NCBI RefSeq assembly: GCF_004352855.1
Contig: NZ_SJSC01000002.1
Location: forward strand, 248,001-312,000
Direction: 5' to 3'
Length of the DNA: 64,000 nt
From: Marinomonas sp. KMM3893
GTDB lineage: Bacteria; Pseudomonadota; Gammaproteobacteria; Pseudomonadales; Marinomonadaceae
A program made the translations under genes and the position numbers. A model generated the notes under the pieces. That model had not been told where the DNA came from and did no database searches. It saw nothing but the letters and a program-made list of their open reading frames with translations. Below, piece by piece: positions 5,952 through 52,900 of the stretch. Numbering within the stretch: position 1 is the stretch's first letter; each line of letters begins with the position of its first letter.

Positions 5952-6755
5952 TTATTTTTTCTTCGGCAAACTCCACGGAAACAGCCAAAGCTGTAGCCAT
6001 TGCACGGATTTAAACAGTAATAAACTGATGGCTGATAGAAAGATTAAGCCAGCGAATGCTTGAGGGATTTTAAAGAAGGAGGTAGAAAATTGAATGAAAT
6101 ACCCCAGACCTTGTTCTGCTGCAACAAACTCCGCCACGACGGCACCAATGATCGCCAGCGTAATCGATACCCGTAAGCCACTGAAAATATGAGGAATCGC
6201 ATAGGGAATACGAATTTGCCAGGTTTCACGATAACGAGGTGCCCGCAGAGATTGGCTTAACTCGATTAATTCTGGTGGTGTTTCCAACATGCCAGTGGTG
6301 GTTGAGACCACCAAAGGAAAGAAGGTGATTAAACAGGTAATGAGCACCCGTGAAGGGTCATCGGTGCCCATCAATACAATGATCAAGGGCGCAACCGCGA
6401 CCACGGGAGTGGATTGAATAACGATGAGGGCCGGATACAAGGTGCGGTTTAATAGCTCAGAGCGAATCATCCCTATCGACAGTGGCAAGCTAATGAGAAT
6501 AGACAAGCCAAAGCCCATTAAAGCGACCCGTAAGGTTGCCCATAAGTGAGTCATCCAGCGGGAGAATTCGACGTTAAAAAAGGCTTCTACAATCGCAGAC
6601 GGGGAAGGCAAAATATATTGTGGTACTTGCCCTAGGCGACAAATTAGCTCCCACAGGATAATTAAGCTAATGAAAAACAGAGCCGGTGCGAAACGGTAAC
6701 CTTGTTTGCTTAGCCACTGGAGAGCCGTTCGTTTAGGCACGGGTGATTGGTTCAT
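5952..6755 (-). CDS. ABC transporter permease (SsuC/TauC/ThiX type)
   Basis: This 267-residue inner-membrane permease has about six transmembrane helices. It contains the EAA loop region (SLRAPRYRETWQIRIPYAIPHIFSGLR, split by the usual glycine) that docks to the ATPase. It belongs to the nitrate/sulfonate/taurine/pyrimidine-precursor group of binding-protein-dependent importers. Its start lies inside the end of the ATPase gene (23-base overlap), so the two are probably translationally coupled. The substrate is not determined by the permease sequence. The downstream deaminase points to a nitrogenous base. Confidence 0.9.
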   Translation of the reverse strand: MNQSPVPKRTALQWLSKQGYRFAPALFFISLIILWELICRLGQVPQYILPSPSAIVEAFFNVEFSRWMTHLWATLRVALMGFGLSILISLPLSIGMIRSELLNRTLYPALIVIQSTPVVAVAPLIIVLMGTDDPSRVLITCLITFFPLVVSTTTGMLETPPELIELSQSLRAPRYRETWQIRIPYAIPHIFSGLRVSITLAIIGAVVAEFVAAEQGLGYFIQFSTSFFKIPQAFAGLIFLSAISLLLFKSVQWLQLWLFPWSLPKKK

Positions 6756-7533
6756 AAATATGCCCTCGAATGATGTTAGTAAGTTCAGAAAAGCGTGGGG
6801 AGTTAATGGTGTCAGAGCTTCGCGGTCTGGGCAGGTCGACGTCGATTAAATCCAGCACAGTACCAGGGCGCTTGCTCATGACCAGAATACGGTCAGCCAA
6901 CAGCACGGCCTCGCTAATAGAGTGAGTGATAAACAGCACGGTTTTGGGGTGGTCGCGCCAAATATCTAACAGATCGAAACCTATTTGTTCTCGTGTGAGA
7001 GCATCGAGTGCGGAAAAAGGCTCGTCCATCAGCAGAATGTCAGGGTTTAACAACAAGGCGCGCACTATGCCAACCCGTTGCTGCATGCCCCCTGAAAGTT
7101 CTTCTGGCATTTTGTCGGCAAAGGCACCCAGCCCAGTCATTTGCAACAGCTCATCGGCGCGCTTTTTATCTTCTTCTCTGACTCGGCCATATTTGTGTTT
7201 TAAGGGAAACAGAACATTCTTTTTTACCGTTAGCCAAGGCAACAAATTCGGCTTTTGAAACACTATCCCTACGTCATCACGAGGCTCTGTTACTGGTCGA
7301 TTAAACACAGAAACCTCCCCGTGGCTTGGTATTAACAGGCCCGATACCATGCGTAATAGGGTGGATTTGCCACAGCCAGAAGGCCCGACAACCGCCACAA
7401 ATTCATGGCGATGGATATCCAGATCGATGGCTTGTACTGCCATGGGAGCTTGCGGGTCTGGGTCATAGCGATGGCCTACGTTTTTCATGCTAACGTAAGC
7501 TTGCAGGCTGTTTTTTTCGTTTGATTCAGTCAT
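6733..7533 (-). CDS. ABC transporter ATP-binding protein
   Basis: This ATPase energises the importer. Walker A is GPSGCGKST at residues 50-58, the signature LSGGMQQR begins at 146, and Walker B is ILLMDE at 166-171, followed by the D-loop SALD. All motifs are intact. The 266-residue length and the sequence place it with the SsuB/TauB/ThiZ type. It lies between the binding-protein gene (30 bases upstream) and the permease gene, which it overlaps. It is cytoplasmic and attached to the membrane through the permease. Confidence 0.92.
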   Translation of the reverse strand: MTESNEKNSLQAYVSMKNVGHRYDPDPQAPMAVQAIDLDIHRHEFVAVVGPSGCGKSTLLRMVSGLLIPSHGEVSVFNRPVTEPRDDVGIVFQKPNLLPWLTVKKNVLFPLKHKYGRVREEDKKRADELLQMTGLGAFADKMPEELSGGMQQRVGIVRALLLNPDILLMDEPFSALDALTREQIGFDLLDIWRDHPKTVLFITHSISEAVLLADRILVMSKRPGTVLDLIDVDLPRPRSSDTINSPRFSELTNIIRGHIYEPITRA

Positions 7534-7562
7534 TTATTCTCTTCCCTTCAATTCGTCGTGGC

Positions 7563-8555
7563 TTAGTCGTGGCTTGGTATGAAAGCTCGGTTGACGACTG
7601 TCTCAGGATCGAGTGAATCCAGGCTGAGGTTATTTGCCTCAGCAACATACTTCCATGTGGCTGCGATGCGCTTTGGTGTCAGCATGCCAAAGCCATCGTG
7701 TTGACTGATCTTGTTAAACACTAAGTTGTGAATACTGGTGATTTGCGCTGCGACAATGTCGGCATCGACTTCGGGCACCATTTTGTGAAGGTCCTGTCCT
7801 GCCTTATCTGGATGTTGGTAGGTGAATTGGATCGATTTTGCATAGGCTTTTATGAAGCGTTTGGCCACGTCTGGGCGTGAGGCTAAGAATTTATCAGACG
7901 CTAATAACGCAGAGCTATAGAGGGATAACCCCCCTTCAGACCAAGGTAATACCTTGATTTCTTTACCTGTTTGCGCGGCTTGTTGTTCGAATAATGCGGT
8001 GTTTGTTACCCAAGCAATAATGGCTTGGGTATTGCCTACCATCAGCATAGGGCCAAGAGCGCCGGGGTCGACTTTGCTTAATTTAATGGAGTCGACTGGC
8101 ACGTTATTTTGTTTGAGCACTAGTGGTAAAAAGGCATTTGAGGAAGTAAAAGGCGAGGTGGCAATTTTCTTGCCCTGTAAGTCTTTAATGCTGTTTATGC
8201 CGCTGTCAGCGAGTACATAAAATGCATGAGGCGCTTCAGTAAAATAAGACATTACGGCACTGACTGGAACATTATCTTGGGCTCTTGCGGCCATCAAGGC
8301 ACCAATATCTGAGCTACCAACGTCTGACTGTCCTGTCGCGAGTTTGGTCACCGCGTCGGTGGAGCCACGGCCGCTGGCTATTTTTACCTCTAAATCGAGT
8401 GCGGCGAAGAAGCCTTCTTGAATACCAACATACACGGGCGCTTTGTCTCCGCCTGGTAACCAATCAAGCTGAAACGTCACCTTGTCAGCAGCGAAAGCAC
8501 TGCCAGTCATGGCGAGGGCCATGATGATCATCGATAAGCGGTTCAATTTTTTCAT
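7563..8555 (-). CDS. ABC transporter substrate-binding protein (NMT1/THI5-like)
   Basis: This periplasmic binding protein has a clear signal peptide ending in GSAFA before ADKVTFQ. The mature part begins VTFQLDWLPGGDKAPVYVG, the typical opening of NMT1/THI5-like proteins, which bind pyrimidine precursors, sulfonates or nitrate-like ligands. A later block, SGRGSTDAVTKLATGQSDVG, is also characteristic. It is the first gene of the operon, with a good Shine-Dalgarno sequence (AGGAGAACAG) just upstream. No TPP riboswitch was seen in the leader, so assignment to thiamine-precursor uptake is not supported. Confidence 0.88.
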   Translation of the reverse strand: MKKLNRLSMIIMALAMTGSAFAADKVTFQLDWLPGGDKAPVYVGIQEGFFAALDLEVKIASGRGSTDAVTKLATGQSDVGSSDIGALMAARAQDNVPVSAVMSYFTEAPHAFYVLADSGINSIKDLQGKKIATSPFTSSNAFLPLVLKQNNVPVDSIKLSKVDPGALGPMLMVGNTQAIIAWVTNTALFEQQAAQTGKEIKVLPWSEGGLSLYSSALLASDKFLASRPDVAKRFIKAYAKSIQFTYQHPDKAGQDLHKMVPEVDADIVAAQITSIHNLVFNKISQHDGFGMLTPKRIAATWKYVAEANNLSLDSLDPETVVNRAFIPSHD

Positions 8556-45466: not shown

Positions 45467-45467
<1 letters not shown>

Positions 45468-45958
45468 TGAGTGAAGAACATCACCCACACTCGGGTCACA
45501 ATCATAACGATTGTATTGAAGCGGCGCTAGAAACCGCAGAACAGTTATGTACTGAACAAGGGCAGCGTTTGACCAAGGTGCGCCGCCGAGCATTAGAGTT
45601 GATATGGGAAAGCCATCGTCCTCTAGGTGCGTATCAGTTGTTGGCAAAATTGGCGGAAGAGGGATTTAACTCGGCGCCACCAACCGTTTATCGTGCGTTG
45701 GACTTTTTGTTGGCCGCCGGTTTGATTCATAAAGTCGAGTCAATGAACGCCTTTTTAGGCTGTGCCCATGCGGATAAAGTGCATAAAGGGTATTTCTTGA
45801 TTTGTGATGAGTGCCACAACGTTATGGAATTTGATTATCAAGATATTCACGCCTCGCTGATAGCCAGAGCCGCAGAACAGGATTTCGAATTACGCTCAGA
45901 AACCATTGAGCTCACTGGGTTGTGTTCTGCCTGCAAAGCCGCAGGAGCCTCCGCATGA
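45467..45958 (+). CDS. zur: Zinc uptake regulator Zur (Fur family)
   Basis: This 163-residue Fur-family repressor is of the Zur type. It has a His-rich N-terminus (residues 5-13) and a winged helix with the recognition block [21 protein letters not shown]. The structural zinc site comprises Cys113, Cys116, Cys153 and Cys156. With zinc it should repress zinc-import genes through boxes like the one at 44476. It sits inside the operon it probably controls, with its ATG overlapping the previous stop and its own stop overlapping the znuC start. Confidence 0.92.
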
Positions 45959-46731
45959 GTCAGCGTTTAGTTACCTTTGATAAAATCGGCATCGAATTTG
46001 GTGGGCGAGTCCTATTAGACAACATAGACATGACCATTAATGAAGGCGAAATTGTGACGCTTATTGGTCCGAATGGCAGCGGAAAAAGCACCTTGATTCG
46101 CACTTTATTAGGGCTGCAAGAGCCGACGCAAGGCGAAGTGATTCGAGATCAAGTGTTGCGTATTGGCTATATGCCTCAGAAGTTGCATATCGACCCAACG
46201 TTGCCGCTCACGGTTAAGCACTTTTTGGCTTTGGTGCGCAGAGTGGATAAAAAACAAATTCTACCCACGTTAGAAAAGGTGGGCATTGCTCATCTTATTC
46301 ATTCTCAAGTGCATGTCTTATCTGGCGGTGAAACACAGCGTGTTTTATTGGCCCGAGCTTTATTGAATAAGCCTAATTTATTGGTCTTGGATGAGCCTGT
46401 TCAAGGGGTAGATGTGAATGGTCAGGTAGAGCTTTATAACCTGATTGAAGGCATTCGTAACGAGTTAAATTGCGGTGTGCTGATGGTGTCCCATGATCTG
46501 CATTTGGTGATGGCGAAAACCGATACTGTGGTGTGTATTAATCAGCATGTTTGTTGTTCAGGTAGCCCACAACATGTGACAGGTCATCCGGCTTACCAAG
46601 CGTTGTTTGGTATTCCAGGTGCTGATGAATCGATTGCGATTTATGCCCATCAACACGACCATGTTCATAATGAGCATGGCAGTATCTTGTCTGAAGATGA
46701 CAATGCTCATTCGCATTGCTCTCATCATTAA
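45955..46731 (+). CDS. znuC: Zinc ABC transporter ATPase ZnuC
   Basis: This is the ATPase of the ZnuABC zinc importer, 258 residues. Walker A is GPNGSGKS at 38-45, the signature LSGGE is at 122-126, and Walker B is LLVLDE at 142-147. The C-terminal 40 residues are His-rich ([11 protein letters not shown] and HSHCSHH), as often seen in ZnuC. The ATG at 45955 overlaps the zur TGA (ATGA). znuB follows after 27 bases. Confidence 0.93.
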
Positions 46732-46758
46732 TCGTGCGGCTTTGGAGCGAACGGTAGC

Positions 46759-47553
46759 ATGTTAGAATTTTTAATCAGAGCCTTGCTTGGTGGATTAGGC
46801 GTGGCGGCAGTGGCCGGTCCATTAGGCGCCTTTGTTGTCTGGCGTCGCATGGCGTATTTTGGCGATACATTAGCGCACTCTGCCTTGCTTGGCGTAGCGC
46901 TGGGTTTTTTATTCAATATTAATTTGAATCTGGCGATTGTGGTTTTGTGTGTTGGCTTGGCCGCGGTGCTTGTGACACTGCAAAAGAAACACATTATTGC
47001 GACCGATACCTTATTGGGGATTTTGGCGCATTCTGCGCTTTCTCTTGGCTTGGTCGCGGTGAGTTTTCTAGACAACATTCGTATCGATCTGATGGCGTAT
47101 TTGTTTGGTGACCTGTTGGCGGTGAGCCAAACGGATCTTTACTGGATTTATGGCGGAGGTTTCGCGGTACTGACGTTGCTGGTGGCCTTTTGGAAACCCT
47201 TGCTGGCGGTCACGGTTAACGAAGAGTTGGCGAAGGTAGAAGGTTACCCCGTCGAAGCGATTCGTTTATTGATGATGTTGTTGGTGGCGTTAGTCATCGC
47301 CGTGGCAATGAAAATTGTAGGGGTGTTATTGATTACTTCGTTGATGATTATTCCTGCTGCGACGGCGCGTAAGTTATCGAATACACCGGTTCAGATGGCC
47401 GCCATCTCTAGCGCGATAGGCTGCTTGGCGGTGTGTGGTGGTGTGTGGTCCTCTTATCATTGGGATACACCAACAGGACCAAGCGTGGTGGTTTGTGCCG
47501 CTTTACTCTTCCTGATCGCTTACACGTCACCATTAAAGCGTCGGACGGCCTAG
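46759..47553 (+). CDS. znuB: Zinc ABC transporter permease ZnuB
   Basis: This 264-residue membrane permease of the ABC-3 (zinc/manganese) family has about eight helices. The family blocks FVVWRRMAYFGDTLAHSALLG and KIVGVLLITSLMIIPAATAR are present. It forms the channel of ZnuABC with the ATPase encoded just upstream. The periplasmic zinc-binding protein ZnuA is not in this window and must be encoded elsewhere. Confidence 0.93.
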   Translation: MLEFLIRALLGGLGVAAVAGPLGAFVVWRRMAYFGDTLAHSALLGVALGFLFNINLNLAIVVLCVGLAAVLVTLQKKHIIATDTLLGILAHSALSLGLVAVSFLDNIRIDLMAYLFGDLLAVSQTDLYWIYGGGFAVLTLLVAFWKPLLAVTVNEELAKVEGYPVEAIRLLMMLLVALVIAVAMKIVGVLLITSLMIIPAATARKLSNTPVQMAAISSAIGCLAVCGGVWSSYHWDTPTGPSVVVCAALLFLIAYTSPLKRRTA

Positions 47554-47674
47554 CGCTTGATATTCAAGCGGCCGTAGCGCGCTTTTTCCTTCCTTGTGAT
47601 GACAAGACGTTGCTCTGATTACTTTTATTAGAGCAGCATTCTCCTCTTTTTTGTTGATATCTGTAATAAAGCCT

Positions 47675-47704
47675 TATCTAGTAACGTCATATCTAGTAAC
47701 GTCT
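47675..47704. repeat. Two tandem 15-bp copies
   Basis: TATCTAGTAACGTCA at 47675-47689 is followed directly by TATCTAGTAACGTCT. The copies differ only in the last base. They lie in the 248-base gap between znuB and the chemoreceptor gene. Confidence 0.8.
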
Positions 47705-47801
47705 TACTGCTATGCTTAGACCAATAGGGTTTTCCCTTGTGACTTTTGTCTACTGGGTCTTTTGACTGTTTTATCATCTCGTTTTGACTGTGGGGAATGC
47801 T

Positions 47802-49436
47802 ATGCTTGGTTTTTCAACGATTAGAGGTCGCCTGTGGGGCAGCTATCTAATTCTGTTTGTGTTGTTGCTTTCGGTGTTGTTTTTTTCGGTGACACGTTTT
47901 CAATTTTTATCTAACAATATCAAAAGTATTGTTGGTGAAAATGCCGCTCTGGTTGAATTGACCGGTGAGCTAAATGTGAATGCCGAGAGTTTGGCCAGTC
48001 GTCTTTTGATGCTCTTTGTCCTTGAAGAGAGACAAGCCCGCATCTCTATTTATAAAGAAATTGATGAACGCAATCGGATGATGGACGAGAGCCTTGCCAA
48101 GATGCAAACCTTGGTGAAATTGCCAGAAGATCAGCGCAGTGTTGAGCAGTTAAAGCAGCAGAGAGGAGTCTACCAAAAAGCCCTTCAAGCCACCGTAGAA
48201 GCGCTTGAATTGGGTGAGTTGGAAGAAGCTAAAAACCTAATGGCTGGGCAAACTCGTAATGATTTGCAAACCTTTTTAGATCAAACCTCCGTCTTTGCGG
48301 AGCGTCAGCAAAATCTTATCCAATCCAAACAGCAACAAATTTTATCAGAAACTGAATCTGGCATTATGCTGATTCTTGGGCAAGGTGTATTGGCGCTTGT
48401 CATAGGTGCGGTCATGTCTATCTTGATTACTCGCAGTATTGTAAAACCGCTTGGGCAAGTGGTGCAGTTATTGGATCGTGTTGCCAAAGGCGATTTGTCT
48501 CATGATATTTCGATTAAGCAACGAGGCGAAATCGGCTTACTAGTAGACAGTGTGGTGAGTATGCGAACCAGCCTTGCTGGGGTGATCGAAAAAATAGACA
48601 ACAGTGCGCAAACCGTTGTTGGTGCAGTCAAAAATATTCGTTTAAGCATGGAAGATGTACAGCAAGGTTCCAGCCAGCAGCAAACCATGGCGAATGACAT
48701 TCATGGCTCTGTCGGTGAACTCTCTGAAGGCGTAAAAGTGATGGCGGAGCACGTTGCTGTGTCTCGTAATCAAGCGGAAGCTGCTCACCACTTGGCACAG
48801 CAGGGCAAGGTAGTGATTACATCTGCAGCGCAAGATATTACCTCTGTAGCAGCCTATATTGAAGAAACATCACATTCTGTCGCCAAACTGAAAGAAAGTG
48901 CGTCCACTGTTTCTAATTTGGTGAATAGTATTCGCAATGTGGCGGAACAAACAAACTTGTTGGCATTAAACGCGTCGATTGAAGCGGCACGAGCAGGCGA
49001 GAGCGGTCGAGGTTTTGCCGTTGTCGCAGATGAAGTACGAAACCTTGCTACCAGCACCGCAGAGGTGACTGGGTCGATTGATAAAGTCATCACCGACATC
49101 AGCGCCTTGTCTATTCAGCTTTCTGACGAAATGTCTAAAGGCCAAGAGAAAATGCGTGAAGGTGTATTGCATATCGAAGAAGTGGTTATACCACTAAGTC
49201 AGCTAGAGGCGGATTCAGCGGAGTCGTTACACAGTCTTGATGAGTTGTCTTTACTGGCTCAGCAACAAGCCAATGAGGTGCAGGACATTGCGACTCATAC
49301 CACGCTTATTGCGGAGGTAACACAGAGCAATGCTGAAACCTCATTACGCTTGAGTCGTTTAACCGACGAGCTGTTTGATTCAGCAGGGCAAACGAAAGAA
49401 GCCACTTCCATCTTTACCCTGCCTACTCGTTCGTAA
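47802..49436 (+). CDS. Methyl-accepting chemotaxis protein
   Basis: This 544-residue chemoreceptor has a first membrane helix at about 14-34, a periplasmic four-helix-bundle-like sensor, and a second helix near 190-210. HAMP follows, with the signalling hairpin ([19 protein letters not shown], then [15 protein letters not shown]). The ATG at 47802 was chosen because GGGGA precedes it. The ligand is unknown. It converges with the DoxX end of the bufferin operon, only 7 bases away. Confidence 0.92.
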
Positions 49437-49443
49437 GGTAGGG

Positions 49444-49914
49444 TTAGCGTTTTAGGAGCCAGTGATCTAGAGAAAGCACCCCTGCGCCGCGATACATAAG
49501 CAGTAACGCAATAGCGAGCCATGTGGCGTGGGTTGGGTAAGCATCTGGATAGATAAAGAGTTGGATAACCAAGGTCATGCCTGCTAGGCCTAATGCGGCG
49601 AAGCGTGTAAAGAAGCCTGTTAGAATTAAAATGGGCAATACATGCTCAGCTATCGCTGCCAGCAAAGCGGCAATGGCAGGAGAAAGCAACGGAAGGTTGT
49701 ATTCGAACTCAAAGAGAAACAGTGTGGAATCTTTTAAATGTGGCCAGCCTAATTGAATCTGGCCACTAATAATATCGAGAGCAAAGCCTTCGATTTTGGT
49801 TTGTCCTGATTTCCAGAATACCGCCGCGATCGCAAATCTTGCGATAAAAAGCACCAGCGATTCTGGAATGCGACGAAACAAAGCATCACTTTTAGATAAT
49901 ATTAAAGACAACAT
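49444..49914 (-). CDS. DoxX family membrane protein (BufD-like, end of the bufferin operon)
   Basis: This 156-residue protein has four hydrophobic helices and DoxX-family sequence (LFIARFAIAAVFWKSGQTKIEGF near the start, AEHVLPILILTGFFTRFAALGL later). DoxX-type proteins are regular members of bufferin operons and of the related Hvf clusters. There they may help with electron or metal handling in the membrane, but their role is not proven. It is the last gene of the leftward operon, 21 bases after bufC. Confidence 0.83.
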   Translation of the reverse strand: MLSLILSKSDALFRRIPESLVLFIARFAIAAVFWKSGQTKIEGFALDIISGQIQLGWPHLKDSTLFLFEFEYNLPLLSPAIAALLAAIAEHVLPILILTGFFTRFAALGLAGMTLVIQLFIYPDAYPTHATWLAIALLLMYRGAGVLSLDHWLLKR

Positions 49915-49935
49915 TTTTTACCCCACAGTTTACAG

Positions 49936-50700
49936 TTATTCAGCTTCTAAGGGCTGATTAGCGATATTCGTAATTAATTTCCATTCTATTAACTTTGCCA
50001 GCGTAGCCCCTAGATCGAAATCATCTGAGTCTGGTAGCGCCTCTTCCAATTTTTTGTTCTGTAATAACTGCTTGAAGAAACGAGCCTCTTCATAGCTAAT
50101 CACATGCAATTGGGCAATTAAGTGAGACTTTGCGAGCAGCAAATATTCGCCTTCGTTGATGGCAACCTGATTCAAGCGCAAATGCCCATCGTTACGGTGG
50201 GCTTGATAGAGTGAGCCGATAGCAAAAGGAGACGCCAGTAATTGCGAGGTTGGCGGTAAGCTTAAATACAGCGCCGAGGGATCGTCTACTTGAGCAAAGG
50301 CTTCTGCTACTTGTTCATGGTTTAGTGTGGCGTGTTCTGTGTCATGGGTGAGTGCCAATAAACTGTATTCGAGTGCGGCTAAGTCTGCAAGAAACGGCAA
50401 GCTTTGAGCGGCTTCAAATTGACGAATGAAGTCTGAAAAAAGATGACCATATTCGCTGATAATAGGGGATTCTGGTGGCGAAACGAGCAGGTACTGTTTT
50501 GCCATGGCACGAAAGAAATCATCCCCTACCAATGCCTGAGTAACTGGAAATATATCGGACAGAGCATCGATCAATGAGACCACAACATTGTTCCGGTAGA
50601 CGTTCAATCGAATTTCTTTTTCTTGCATTGATAAGGCGTCTATTTCACGATAAAAGCGGGTATCTTCGCCTAATAAGGCAGCTTTAAATTCGTTGTTCAT
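49936..50700 (-). CDS. bufC: BufC/HvfC family protein (DUF2063), partner of the MNIO enzyme
   Basis: This 254-residue cytoplasmic protein has an N-terminal domain of the DUF2063 type (RLNVYRNNVVVSLIDALSDIFPVTQALVGDDFF). In MNIO systems this domain recognises the precursor peptide and works with the DUF692 enzyme. The ATG at 50700 was chosen because the product then starts MNNEFKAALLGED, just ahead of the conserved domain. The gene overlaps the end of bufB by 17 bases, which implies tight coupling. The symbol follows the bufferin naming and is by analogy. Confidence 0.82.
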   Translation of the reverse strand: MNNEFKAALLGEDTRFYREIDALSMQEKEIRLNVYRNNVVVSLIDALSDIFPVTQALVGDDFFRAMAKQYLLVSPPESPIISEYGHLFSDFIRQFEAAQSLPFLADLAALEYSLLALTHDTEHATLNHEQVAEAFAQVDDPSALYLSLPPTSQLLASPFAIGSLYQAHRNDGHLRLNQVAINEGEYLLLAKSHLIAQLHVISYEEARFFKQLLQNKKLEEALPDSDDFDLGATLAKLIEWKLITNIANQPLEAE

Positions 50701-51595
50701 AGCGACTCTCCCGCAACGCCGTTTGGCGAATTGTGTCGGCATAGCGCGCTTCAGCAAGTAGCTCGGTCAGCGGTGGAAGGTTGCCATCGCGCTCAATCAG
50801 CGTCGGGCAAGCTTGGTTCATCATATTAAGTTGGAGGCAGGTGTATTGATATAAAGCCCAAACGTCTTGGGAGACTGGTTCATCATGACTGTCTATTTTC
50901 AATGGCAATGTGGTGTTGCTGTCTATGGTGTGACCGGCAAGGTGCATTTGCCCCACGGCATTTAGTGGGAAATCATTGAGGTAGTCGTATGGGTTGGTTC
51001 TATTGTTAAAACAAGATACTTCGACATTATTCACATCCAGTAATAAGCCGCAGCCAGTGCGTTTGGCGATTTCACGAATGAAATCCGTTTCGCTCATATC
51101 GCTGCGTGTGAACTCAAAATAAGTCGATGGGTTTTCAAGCAGAATTTGTCTTTGTAGACACTCTTGAACTTGCTCAATATGTCGGCACACACGGTCTAAT
51201 GTTGGGCCATCATAAGGTACTGGTAATAAATCATTTAAGAATTGACTATGGTGCGTTGACCATGCCAAATGTTCTGAAAAAACAGCAGGTTGAAGCTCGT
51301 TAACCAGTTTGGCAACGCGCTTTAAATGTTCGATATTTAGAGGAGTTTCACCACCAATGGACAGCCCAACACCATGTACGGTGAGAGGGTAATGCTCGCG
51401 GATTTTATGCAGATAATGGCGCGCAGGTCCGCCGTTACTTAAATAGTTTTCGGCATGAATTTCAAAAAAACCTACCTCAGGTAGATCCGCTAATATGCCT
51501 TGATAATAAGCAGGCTTTAAGCTGATACCAGAGAGGGATGAAAAGGTCGAAGAGGCAAGCATTGCATCTTCGACTTTTGGTGTGAAACGAGACAT
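50684..51595 (-). CDS. bufB: BufB/HvfB family MNIO enzyme (DUF692), modifies the bufferin precursor
   Basis: This 303-residue protein is of the DUF692 family, now called multinuclear non-haem iron-dependent oxidases (MNIOs), which modify cysteines in small precursor peptides. TIM-barrel blocks with likely iron ligands are visible: EIHAENYL at 45-52, TVHGVGLSIGG at 72-82, SEHLAW at 107-112, LENPSTYFEF at about 153-162, LLDVNNVEVS at 185-194 and HLAGHT at 218-223. It lies between the peptide gene and bufC. Together they suggest conversion of the precursor cysteines into thiooxazole-type groups. Confidence 0.88.
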   Translation of the reverse strand: MSRFTPKVEDAMLASSTFSSLSGISLKPAYYQGILADLPEVGFFEIHAENYLSNGGPARHYLHKIREHYPLTVHGVGLSIGGETPLNIEHLKRVAKLVNELQPAVFSEHLAWSTHHSQFLNDLLPVPYDGPTLDRVCRHIEQVQECLQRQILLENPSTYFEFTRSDMSETDFIREIAKRTGCGLLLDVNNVEVSCFNNRTNPYDYLNDFPLNAVGQMHLAGHTIDSNTTLPLKIDSHDEPVSQDVWALYQYTCLQLNMMNQACPTLIERDGNLPPLTELLAEARYADTIRQTALRESRYEQRI

Positions 51596-51615
51596 GGGAA
51601 TGTGAGTCCGTTTAT

Positions 51616-51891
51616 TTAGAAAGCTTTCAATTGGCCGTGGCCAGTTGGTGATGTTTTAGAGTCCATTTCTAAACAAGTGCCAGCAGGGACGATTTTCCAA
51701 GCATTGCCTTGATAATCTGTTTTAGAAGTACCTGCACAAGAAGTGCCTGGGCCTGCTGCACAATCATTTTGGCCAGCTAATGCCACGCCGAAACATTTTT
51801 CTTTGCTGGCAGCTTGTGCTGGCACAGATACCGCAGAGATTGCAACGGCTGTACCAAGTGCTAGGGCTAGAGATGCTTTTGTGTTTTTCAT
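51616..51891 (-). CDS. bufA: BufA1-type bufferin precursor peptide (DUF2282)
   Basis: This 91-residue exported peptide has a signal peptide ending AQA-ASKEK. Its mature part has four cysteines at 33, 44, 52 and 73, in the family pattern [17 protein letters not shown], then TSCAGT and GTCLEM. DUF2282 peptides of this type are bufferins: the central cysteines are modified by BufB and the product binds copper in the periplasm. This gene has a strong GAGGAT ribosome site and leads the operon bufA-bufB-bufC-doxX. It is placed just after its ECF sigma and anti-sigma genes. Confidence 0.87.
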
Positions 51892-51930
51892 TGGTGTATC
51901 CTCATTTTCTATTAATTAGTATGTCAAAGG

Positions 51931-51967
51931 GGTAACAAGCAATGCCTTATGCTTTGCTTGTGTTACC
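51931..51967 (-). promoter_or_regulatory. Inverted repeat in the bufA leader
   Basis: GGTAACAAGCAA pairs with TTGCTTGTGTTACC with a two-base bulge. It would lie at the 5' end of the buf mRNA. No T run follows on the minus strand, so it is not a classical terminator. Confidence 0.55.
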
Positions 51968-51974
51968 TATCTTT

Positions 51975-52001
51975 GACGAGGGCGGAAAAGGTTTTATTAC
52001 A
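51975..52001 (-). promoter_or_regulatory. Candidate ECF promoter of bufA
   Basis: On the minus strand TGTAAT is followed after 17 bases by CGTCAAA. This resembles ECF-type -35/-10 spacing with a CGTC -10. The match is by eye and tentative. Confidence 0.35.
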
Positions 52002-52028
52002 TAATTTGCGGAAAAAAATGGAAAAAAA

Positions 52029-52214
52029 TTATTTTACGTCAGGATCTTTCATATAACGTTTTGAAATAGAACGTAATTCTTCCATCTGTTGTGCAAAGCG
52101 ACGGCAGGGTGGACACATGGTGGTGTGTACCCCTAGCGCGATTTTTTCTTTCGTATCGAGTGGTCGATCCAACTTTTCAGACAACAACTGAGTGGCTTGG
52201 TGGCAGCTCATCAT
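52029..52214 (-). CDS. Zinc-finger anti-sigma factor, short
   Basis: This 61-residue protein carries a zinc-binding anti-sigma pattern: Cys4 in the N-terminal helix, then HTTMCPPC (His-x3-Cys-x2-Cys). There is no transmembrane segment, so it acts as a soluble anti-sigma factor that could release sigma on zinc loss, oxidation or metal stress. Its ATG overlaps the sigma factor stop (ATGA), as usual for sigma/anti-sigma pairs. It directly precedes the bufferin genes. Confidence 0.8.
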   Translation of the reverse strand: MMSCHQATQLLSEKLDRPLDTKEKIALGVHTTMCPPCRRFAQQMEELRSISKRYMKDPDVK

Positions 52215-52843
52215 GATGACTTCTCCGCTTGATACCAGTTATCTTCTAGACATTCTCTTAACCGTAAACGAGCACGATAAAGGGTGACATTGAGGTTGGT
52301 TACGGTTAAATCTTCGTTATGGCAAATTTCTGCGGTGTCCATTTCGAGAAATTCTCGCATCATAAAAAAGCGGCTGTATTTTTCGGGGAGGGCGTTTAGG
52401 CAGGCGTCAAATACTCGCCAGAAATGTGCGTTTTCAACACAGTGATCCGGCGTGTCCCATTTTTTAGGGCGCTCACTTTTTTGCCAATGACCGTGTTTGT
52501 TGAATAAAACTTCAATCAGCTCTTCGCCATTCACATTCGGACCATCTTCTAGTTGGCTGGCCGCGGTATGACGTTTCTCTTTGCGCAACAGGTCGATGAG
52601 TTTGTTTTTTAGAATGGAAAAGACCCATGTTTTGAGTGCCGCTTGGCGTGAAAAACGATCGATATTTTGATAGGCCGAGAGCATGGCCTCTTGCACAGCG
52701 TCTTCAGCAAGTTGTTCATCTCGGACTTGAATGCGCGCAAATTTTACCATTTGCAGTCGAAGGTCATTCATAAACTCGGCATTCATAAAGATGCTTGCAG
52801 CTTGTGTGTGTGCAGGGTTTGAAGAGATACTGGCGTTTGTCAT
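52211..52843 (-). CDS. ECF RNA polymerase sigma factor
   Basis: This 210-residue ECF sigma factor has region 2 with RDEQLAEDAVQEAMLSAYQNIDRF and the following KTWVFSILKNKLIDLLR. Region 4 near the C-terminus holds MDTAEICHNEDLTVTNLNVTLYRARLRLRE. The middle linker is longer than usual (about 45 residues between the domains, around KHGHWQKSERPKKW), as in several metal-response ECF groups. It is paired with the overlapping anti-sigma gene and probably drives the bufferin operon. Confidence 0.88.
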   Translation of the reverse strand: MTNASISSNPAHTQAASIFMNAEFMNDLRLQMVKFARIQVRDEQLAEDAVQEAMLSAYQNIDRFSRQAALKTWVFSILKNKLIDLLRKEKRHTAASQLEDGPNVNGEELIEVLFNKHGHWQKSERPKKWDTPDHCVENAHFWRVFDACLNALPEKYSRFFMMREFLEMDTAEICHNEDLTVTNLNVTLYRARLRLRECLEDNWYQAEKSS

Positions 52844-52876
52844 TTAAGCCTCTACTGATGGATTATCATCATTGTA

Positions 52877-52900
52877 GACTGCACAATGCTTTAAATGTTC
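52877..52900 (-). promoter_or_regulatory. Candidate autoregulated promoter of the ECF sigma gene
   Basis: On the minus strand GAAC is separated by 17 bases from GTC, an ECF-like arrangement 34-57 bases before the sigma gene start. It differs from the motif before bufA in the -35 part, so it is only suggestive. Confidence 0.25.

Follow-up and report, generated by a model that had tools for sequence, protein, structure and literature searches.

Introduction

Bufferins are peptides that enhance growth under copper stress (PMC12452194). In Buf1, the two central cysteines are modified to thiooxazoles and the two outer ones are joined in a disulphide bond (PMC12452194, Fig. 3 legend); our account of this chemistry also draws on work on the captophorins (PMC13097082). 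As in the locus described here, captophorins are produced from a cysteine-containing precursor by an MNIO enzyme and a PME1-type partner, and a DUF2282 group is found among them (PMC13097082). The same paper already links such clusters to oxidative stress and metals, and its conclusions call the cellular role of these peptides open. Here we analyze an operon of this kind in Marinomonas sp. KMM3893, in a stretch of 64,000 nucleotides (contig NZ_SJSC01000002.1, positions 248,001 to 312,000), referred to below as the window. Six leftward genes encode an extracytoplasmic function (ECF) sigma factor, a ZAS-type anti-sigma factor, the DUF2282 precursor BufA, the MNIO enzyme BufB, its DUF2063 partner BufC, and a DoxX family protein. 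This Buf1-type bufferin (captophorin) operon probably belongs, as one of several outputs, to an ECF sigma regulon of the MseR/HrsE type, and it may respond to envelope oxidants.

In Neisseria meningitidis, MseR restrains sigma-E, whose targets are its own operon (NMB2140-NMB2145) and msrA/msrB (PMC2893595). As in Marinomonas, this anti-sigma factor is a small ZAS protein with Cys4, His30, Cys34 and Cys37, encoded directly after the sigma factor, and the two systems also share a DoxX-like gene in the operon, msrA/msrB in the regulon, and the promoter spacing (PMC2893595). The gene order differs, and so does the precursor, which is of the EGKCG type in the gonococcus (PMC13097082) but of the DUF2282 type in Marinomonas. 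In silico, the motif marks only the operon and msrA/msrB in Neisseria (PMC2893595), whereas several more genes carry it in Marinomonas. In Haemophilus influenzae, the 67-residue cytoplasmic ZAS protein HrsE restrains RpoE2, and RpoE2 switches on msrAB and a DoxX/COG3220/DUF2063 cluster in response to hypochlorous acid (HOCl; PMC7907618). The likeness to Marinomonas again extends to the small ZAS anti-sigma factor, the msr genes, and the DoxX, DUF2063 and COG3220 genes, but in H. influenzae the DoxX cluster lies apart from the sigma gene and carries an EGKCG precursor (oxazolin; PMC7907618), while in Marinomonas it is linked to the sigma gene and carries a DUF2282 precursor. The word "copper" appears nowhere in the three Neisseria and Haemophilus papers that were searched. 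Since MseR and HrsE share this parts list, the Marinomonas operon looks like the same regulatory device fitted with a DUF2282 precursor.

A third known system is that of Caulobacter sigma-F, which controls two DUF2282-DUF692-DUF2063 operons, one of them with DoxX, as well as YedY (PMC3511200). Buf1-type genes and DoxX are thus under an ECF sigma factor as in Marinomonas, and the -35 element likewise begins with GTAA. However, the Caulobacter anti-sigma factor NrsF has six predicted membrane segments and the -10 element is CGAA (PMC3511200), while Marinomonas encodes an unrelated 61-residue ZAS protein. Buf1 clusters with sigma/NrsF are already known (PMC12452194). This type of control was rejected for the Marinomonas operon, as NrsF is found in none of the 48 Marinomonas genomes that make up our genus sample, that of the strain itself included.

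A conserved six-gene operon

The evidence gathered from this locus consists of gene content, conservation, promoter sites, a motif-predicted regulon, and the co-occurrence of motif and sigma factor. Families were assigned from Pfam and NCBIfam profile scores against curated cut-offs (Table 1). The six genes listed in the initial annotation are all present, in the same places and on the same strand, and score above these cut-offs. They follow the order sigma, anti-sigma, a gap of 137 nucleotides, bufA, bufB, bufC and doxX. Overlaps, noted in the initial annotation, occur at two junctions: four nucleotides between the sigma and anti-sigma genes (52211-52214) and 17 between bufB and bufC (50684-50700). 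The other junctions are gaps, of 20 nucleotides between bufA and bufB and 21 between bufC and doxX, besides the 137 ahead of bufA. The bufC start is taken as the ATG at 50700, although the listing of open reading frames (ORFs) gives an earlier TTG at 50757. BufB matches PDB entry 3bww (E 4.1e-43), and a PDB sequence search with BufC returned no match. The products of bufC and doxX stay under the HvfC (46.1 vs 142) and HvfX (39.7 vs 80) equivalog cut-offs, respectively. A DoxX gene is common in Buf1 clusters, though some lack it.

The MNIO family is present in 39 of the 48 genomes, at 43 loci, and the stretches around the 42 other loci were compared with the window. The complete set (sigma-ZAS-bufA-bufB-bufC-doxX) recurs at 35 of the 43 loci, window included, and so its assembly is not due to chance. 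One of these 35, L042, was counted even though its contig begins inside the sigma gene. The copies closest to that of the window come from genomes G011 and G025. Elsewhere, L034, L035, L037 and L067 carry other MNIO genes and no bufA match, and L072-L075 have a distant bufA and no sigma gene. In some relatives, the gap between the ZAS gene and bufA contains a short lysine-rich ORF. At L040 it holds a DUF547 gene on the opposite strand, 61.5% identical to the DUF547 gene in the predicted regulon of the window's genome.

The sigma factor and its ZAS partner

The sigma gene is found in 43 of the 48 genomes, 42 times above the cut-off and once as split fragments below it, and the ZAS gene occurs in these same 43. 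In eight of them the pair is kept without any MNIO gene. The initial annotation had described a His-x3-Cys-x2-Cys site in the 61-residue anti-sigma factor, which is borne out as H30, C34 and C37. To these we add C4, and all four residues are invariant in the 35 copies from the genus. No membrane segment was seen by eye. The structure model has three helices (mean pLDDT 91.8), and its top five VIA-align matches are all anti-sigma domains, with modest scores. The best are RsiW, MucA, ChrR, RslA and PupR (Foldseek E about 1, Z at most 6.9), and a PDB sequence search gave only weak matches. By analogy with MseR, HrsE and RsrA, this small protein would bind zinc and inhibit the sigma factor. In the case of MseR, zinc binding was left open by its authors (PMC2893595).

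A predicted promoter motif ahead of bufA

Side-by-side reading of the regions upstream of the sigma gene and bufA revealed the motif TGTAAKAA-N15-CGTCWA. With at most one mismatch, it precedes bufA at all 35 loci (23 exact), compared with 1 of 700 shuffled sequences, and the sigma gene at 28 of the 35 (21 exact). Conservation also extends beyond the searched pattern, notably to an A after the -10 element (0.92) and an A after the -35 element (0.86). The neisserial sigma-E consensus reads GTMAGBWTT at -35 and CGTCTAAH at -10, with 12-13 nucleotides between them (PMC2893595), and the Marinomonas motif fits it with a 13-nucleotide spacer, making it the same element with the same spacing. A core of this motif, GTAAKA-N16-CGTC, is located ahead of bufA in all four Vibrio loci. 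When three mismatches are allowed, the number of matches in the window is near chance (24 found, 16.1 expected, and 3 of 100 shuffles as high).

The motif also follows the sigma factor from genome to genome. At least one exact copy is present in 42 of the 43 genomes with the sigma gene and in 1 of the 5 without it (Fisher p 1.3e-4, not corrected for phylogeny). The predicted promoter within the 137-nucleotide gap is an addition to the initial annotation, as is the chemoreceptor gene that runs towards doxX from the other side, seven nucleotides away. A chemoreceptor homologue lies beside doxX at 21 of the 35 loci, some stretches ending too early to show one.

The predicted regulon

Membership of the regulon is defined by the motif: the first gene downstream of each site was taken, these genes were clustered by BLAST, and one member per cluster was scanned for families. 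A search of the strain's genome gave four exact matches to the pattern, against one for the reversed control. These sites precede bufA, an msrA whose product has an export-like N-terminus (by eye), a YnjB-like gene and a DUF547 gene. The YnjB-like binding protein gene is followed by a gene whose product resembles a membrane protein (permease-like) and is matched by no Pfam family, and then by an ABC ATPase gene. When the pattern was extended slightly and up to one mismatch was tolerated, seven sites were found (control 1), adding the chemoreceptor gene beside the operon, a DedA-like gene and a site inside a coding frame. The DedA-like protein is 39.8% identical over 191 residues to the DedA/VTT relative that was scanned. 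Six of the seven sites therefore precede bufA or members of families that recur across the genus.

Genus-wide, there are 123 exact motifs, compared with 11 for the reversed pattern. After 38 sites at the bufferin operon had been set aside by hand, 80 of the 81 other genus sites and three from the strain itself made up a sample of 83. The first gene is YnjB-like at 22 of these, msrA at 20, a chemoreceptor gene at 13 and DedA/VTT-like at 13. The remainder comprise three DUF547, three MsrB and two RecJ genes, two singletons (one without a family match, one a fusion of VTT and FAD-oxidoreductase), and five sites without a nearby ORF. Among the last, L095 and L111 have a gene for MsrP, the current name of YedY, about 500 nucleotides downstream, and L132 ends with its contig. 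By motif, methionine-sulfoxide reductases are thus represented by MsrA in the strain and 19 other genomes of the genus, MsrB in three and MsrP in two, and a chemoreceptor homologue follows the exact motif in 13. The genes assigned to the predicted regulon include no copper exporter and no known zinc gene.

Table 1. Features of the Marinomonas sp. KMM3893 locus, in window coordinates.
Feature	Coordinates	Strand	Remarks
ECF sigma factor, 210 residues	52211..52843	-	NF009196 / TIGR02943 family; NF009196 310.8 vs cut-off 287
ZAS-type anti-sigma factor, 61 residues	52029..52214	-	zf-HC2 30.2 vs 22.2; NF052368 75.6 vs 50
bufA, DUF2282 (BufA1) precursor, 91 residues	51616..51891	-	PF10048 88.1 bits vs 22.4
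bufB, MNIO (DUF692), 303 residues	50684..51595	-	NF050167 357.5 vs 310 bits
bufC, DUF2063 partner (PME1 type), 254 residues	49936..50700	-	PF09836 82 vs 27.2 bits
doxX, DoxX family protein, 156 residues	49444..49914	-	PF07681 58.7 vs 23.6
Methyl-accepting chemotaxis protein (4HB_MCP_1-HAMP-MCPsignal)	47784..49436	+	transcribed towards doxX; assigned to the predicted regulon
Predicted sigma promoter of bufA, TGTAATAAAACCTTTTCCGCCCTCGTCAA	51973..52001	-	81 nucleotides before the bufA ATG, inside the 137-nucleotide gap
Degenerate version of this site ahead of the sigma gene (GAACATT...GTCTA)	52875..52900	-	by eye
Predicted sigma promoter of the chemoreceptor gene (1 mismatch)	47662..47690	+	motif scan

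The precursor and a model for its induction

The precursor matches the DUF2282 model, in agreement with the initial annotation, and the four spaced cysteines noted there prove to be C33, C44, C52 and C73, invariant in all 35 copies. Its N-terminus appears Sec-like by eye, with a lysine-containing start, a hydrophobic stretch and the sequence PAQA-A. It can be proposed, after Buf1, that C44 and C52 are the modified cysteines and that C33 and C73 form the disulphide.

A model of the whole system can be put forward in which the anti-sigma action, the signal, the chemistry and copper binding are borrowed from characterized relatives. In unstressed cells, the sigma factor would be sequestered by the small cytoplasmic ZAS protein, in which C4/H30/C34/C37 probably bind zinc. 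When thiol-reactive stress reaches the cytoplasm, most likely in the form of hypochlorite or a related oxidant, the zinc site would be oxidized or stripped and the sigma factor set free. The sigma factor would then read TGTAAKAA...CGTCWA promoters, turning on bufABC-doxX, the envelope methionine-sulfoxide reductase and the chemoreceptor, together with the YnjBCD-type transporter, the DedA-like protein and the DUF547 protein. BufB and BufC would convert C44 and C52 of BufA into thiooxazoles, with formation of the C33-C73 disulphide, and the modified BufA would be exported and bind Cu(I) in the periplasm. Our analysis suggests that the operon shares its switch with the repair of oxidized envelope proteins, and that the peptide may help to protect the cell from oxidants in addition to copper.

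Alternative explanations

The initial annotation had described a bufferin-type operon controlled by an ECF sigma factor and a zinc-finger anti-sigma factor, which agrees with our results, and had favoured the anti-sigma factor as a direct metal sensor. In such a system, Cu(I) or another thiophilic metal would displace zinc at the four ZAS ligands and free the sigma factor. The operon would then be primarily a metal response, with msr and the other genes co-regulated because metal damages methionine and thiols. The growth benefit that bufferins bring under copper stress fits this explanation, as does the invariance of the four ligands, and Caulobacter sigma-F answers chromium and cadmium in a way that its authors call "oxidative-stress-independent" (PMC3511200). 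On the other hand, the same ligand set is found in MseR, the genes at the 83 other sites include methionine-sulfoxide reductases and unrelated families but no assigned copper exporter, and the homologous Haemophilus pair responds to HOCl (PMC7907618). Since the pair persists without MNIO in eight genomes and the predicted regulon is wider than the operon, a copper-only sensor ranks below control by envelope oxidants, and we regard a dedicated metal switch as less likely. The ZAS protein might instead report zinc status, zinc loss freeing the sigma factor and tying the locus to the zur-, znuC- and znuB-like genes that adjoin it (45467-47553, named by eye). A znuB homologue is indeed inside the fetched stretch at 28 of the 35 loci. 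Yet a neighbourhood of this kind is weak evidence, and with no known zinc gene in the assigned regulon, this explanation is very improbable.

It could also be that a different sigma factor recognizes the motif, genuine as it is, and that the ECF/ZAS pair controls little outside its own operon. Every genome of the genus has additional ECF-like genes with weak similarity to this sigma factor, and the sigma gene of the window is itself without the motif. Against this stand the co-occurrence of the motif with the sigma/ZAS pair, its position before the sigma gene at most loci, and its match to the neisserial consensus, and we consider such a case improbable. Several observations nevertheless weigh against an oxidant-responsive regulon of the MseR/HrsE type. 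Hydrogen peroxide, diamide and singlet oxygen did not raise the N. meningitidis sigma-E targets (PMC2893595), H. influenzae without rpoE2 keeps wild-type oxidant resistance in vitro (PMC7907618), and in Caulobacter the sigma-F response to chromium and cadmium is, according to its authors, independent of oxidative stress and leaves the msrA homologues unchanged (PMC3511200). In Marinomonas, the canonical motif was not found upstream of the sigma gene in the window and its two closest relatives, where the bufA site is perfect; this small clade may therefore have little or no autoregulation. Genome G015 has the sigma and ZAS genes but no exact motif, G029 has a motif (before ynjB) without the sigma gene, and one of the strain's own single-mismatch sites is the one within a coding frame. 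L115 and L146 share an exact motif with no sensible gene downstream, possibly marking a non-coding RNA or arising by chance, and the Klebsiella plasmid locus described below has no exact Marinomonas motif.

Related loci beyond the genus

The best 80 of 248 named loci with BufA relatives were inspected, an uneven sample. The sigma/ZAS pair is present at 30 of these 80 (L193-L222), which are 26 Marinomonas and four Vibrio loci. At the other 50 there is no ZAS match, and a weak sigma match at two. These 50 are mostly alphaproteobacterial, with some Granulosicoccaceae and an unassigned bin, and several are on short contigs. The full six-gene set is found in the four Vibrio records, although bufB and bufC are apparently fused in one. 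This is Vibrio ruber L207, where a single 550-residue ORF (6292-7944) matches MNIO and no separate bufC is listed. In an uncultured Vibrio (L221, 5594-7084), the anti-sigma gene is separated from the MNIO gene by four tandem copies of bufA, more than one of which is preceded by the sigma motif.

A class-wide search for ZAS proteins gave a match in 81 of 369 genomes, 56 above the cut-off. At 30 such loci, window included, the cargo judged by eye is mixed (EGKCG precursors, ArsS- and TVP38-like genes, DoxX-BufC), so that a ZAS protein does not imply a bufferin. On Klebsiella and Enterobacter plasmids (L274, 5387-11142), a sigma-zf-HC2 pair faces DUF2282, DUF692, DUF2063, DoxX, carboxymuconolactone decarboxylase, MsrP and MsrQ genes. 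This cluster occurs in five records at 99% identity or more, and five of seven matching records are typed as conjugative. On an Acinetobacter plasmid (L273), the same type of sigma factor lies beside CcdA, thioredoxin, peroxiredoxin-like, ArsS, TVP38/FAD-oxidoreductase and DUF547 genes. There is no bufferin gene in that stretch, and a matching motif precedes a YiiX/YebB-like gene.

Conclusion

Both halves of this system are known separately: in one, Buf1 clusters are accompanied by sigma/NrsF, and in the other, a ZAS protein controls a sigma regulon that holds msr genes and an EGKCG-type cluster. In the open-licence literature searched we found neither a DUF2282 cluster with a ZAS anti-sigma factor nor work on the Marinomonas system. 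We did not see there a DUF2282 precursor joined to a ZAS protein, a predicted bufA promoter inside the operon, and a predicted regulon extended by a chemoreceptor, a transporter and DedA/DUF547 proteins, and this combination appears to be new.

More tentatively, the DUF2282 copper-buffering peptides in part of the Gammaproteobacteria may be a component of an envelope-oxidant regulon. A single cytoplasmic redox switch would then coordinate the sequestering of copper, the repair of methionine sulfoxide and, in the case of Marinomonas, escape from the stress by means of a dedicated chemoreceptor. If so, the bufferin would chiefly keep copper from amplifying hypohalous or peroxide damage. Bufferins are also paired with methionine-sulfoxide reductases in Caulobacter, where the anti-sigma factor is unrelated (PMC3511200), and in the plasmid clusters, a recurrence that hints at a more general connection. 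The chemoreceptor of the predicted regulon is another lead. For a free-living marine genus, the promoter sites offer a concrete and testable answer on the role of these peptides: a small anti-sigma factor of the redox type is predicted to control their production jointly with methionine repair in the envelope.

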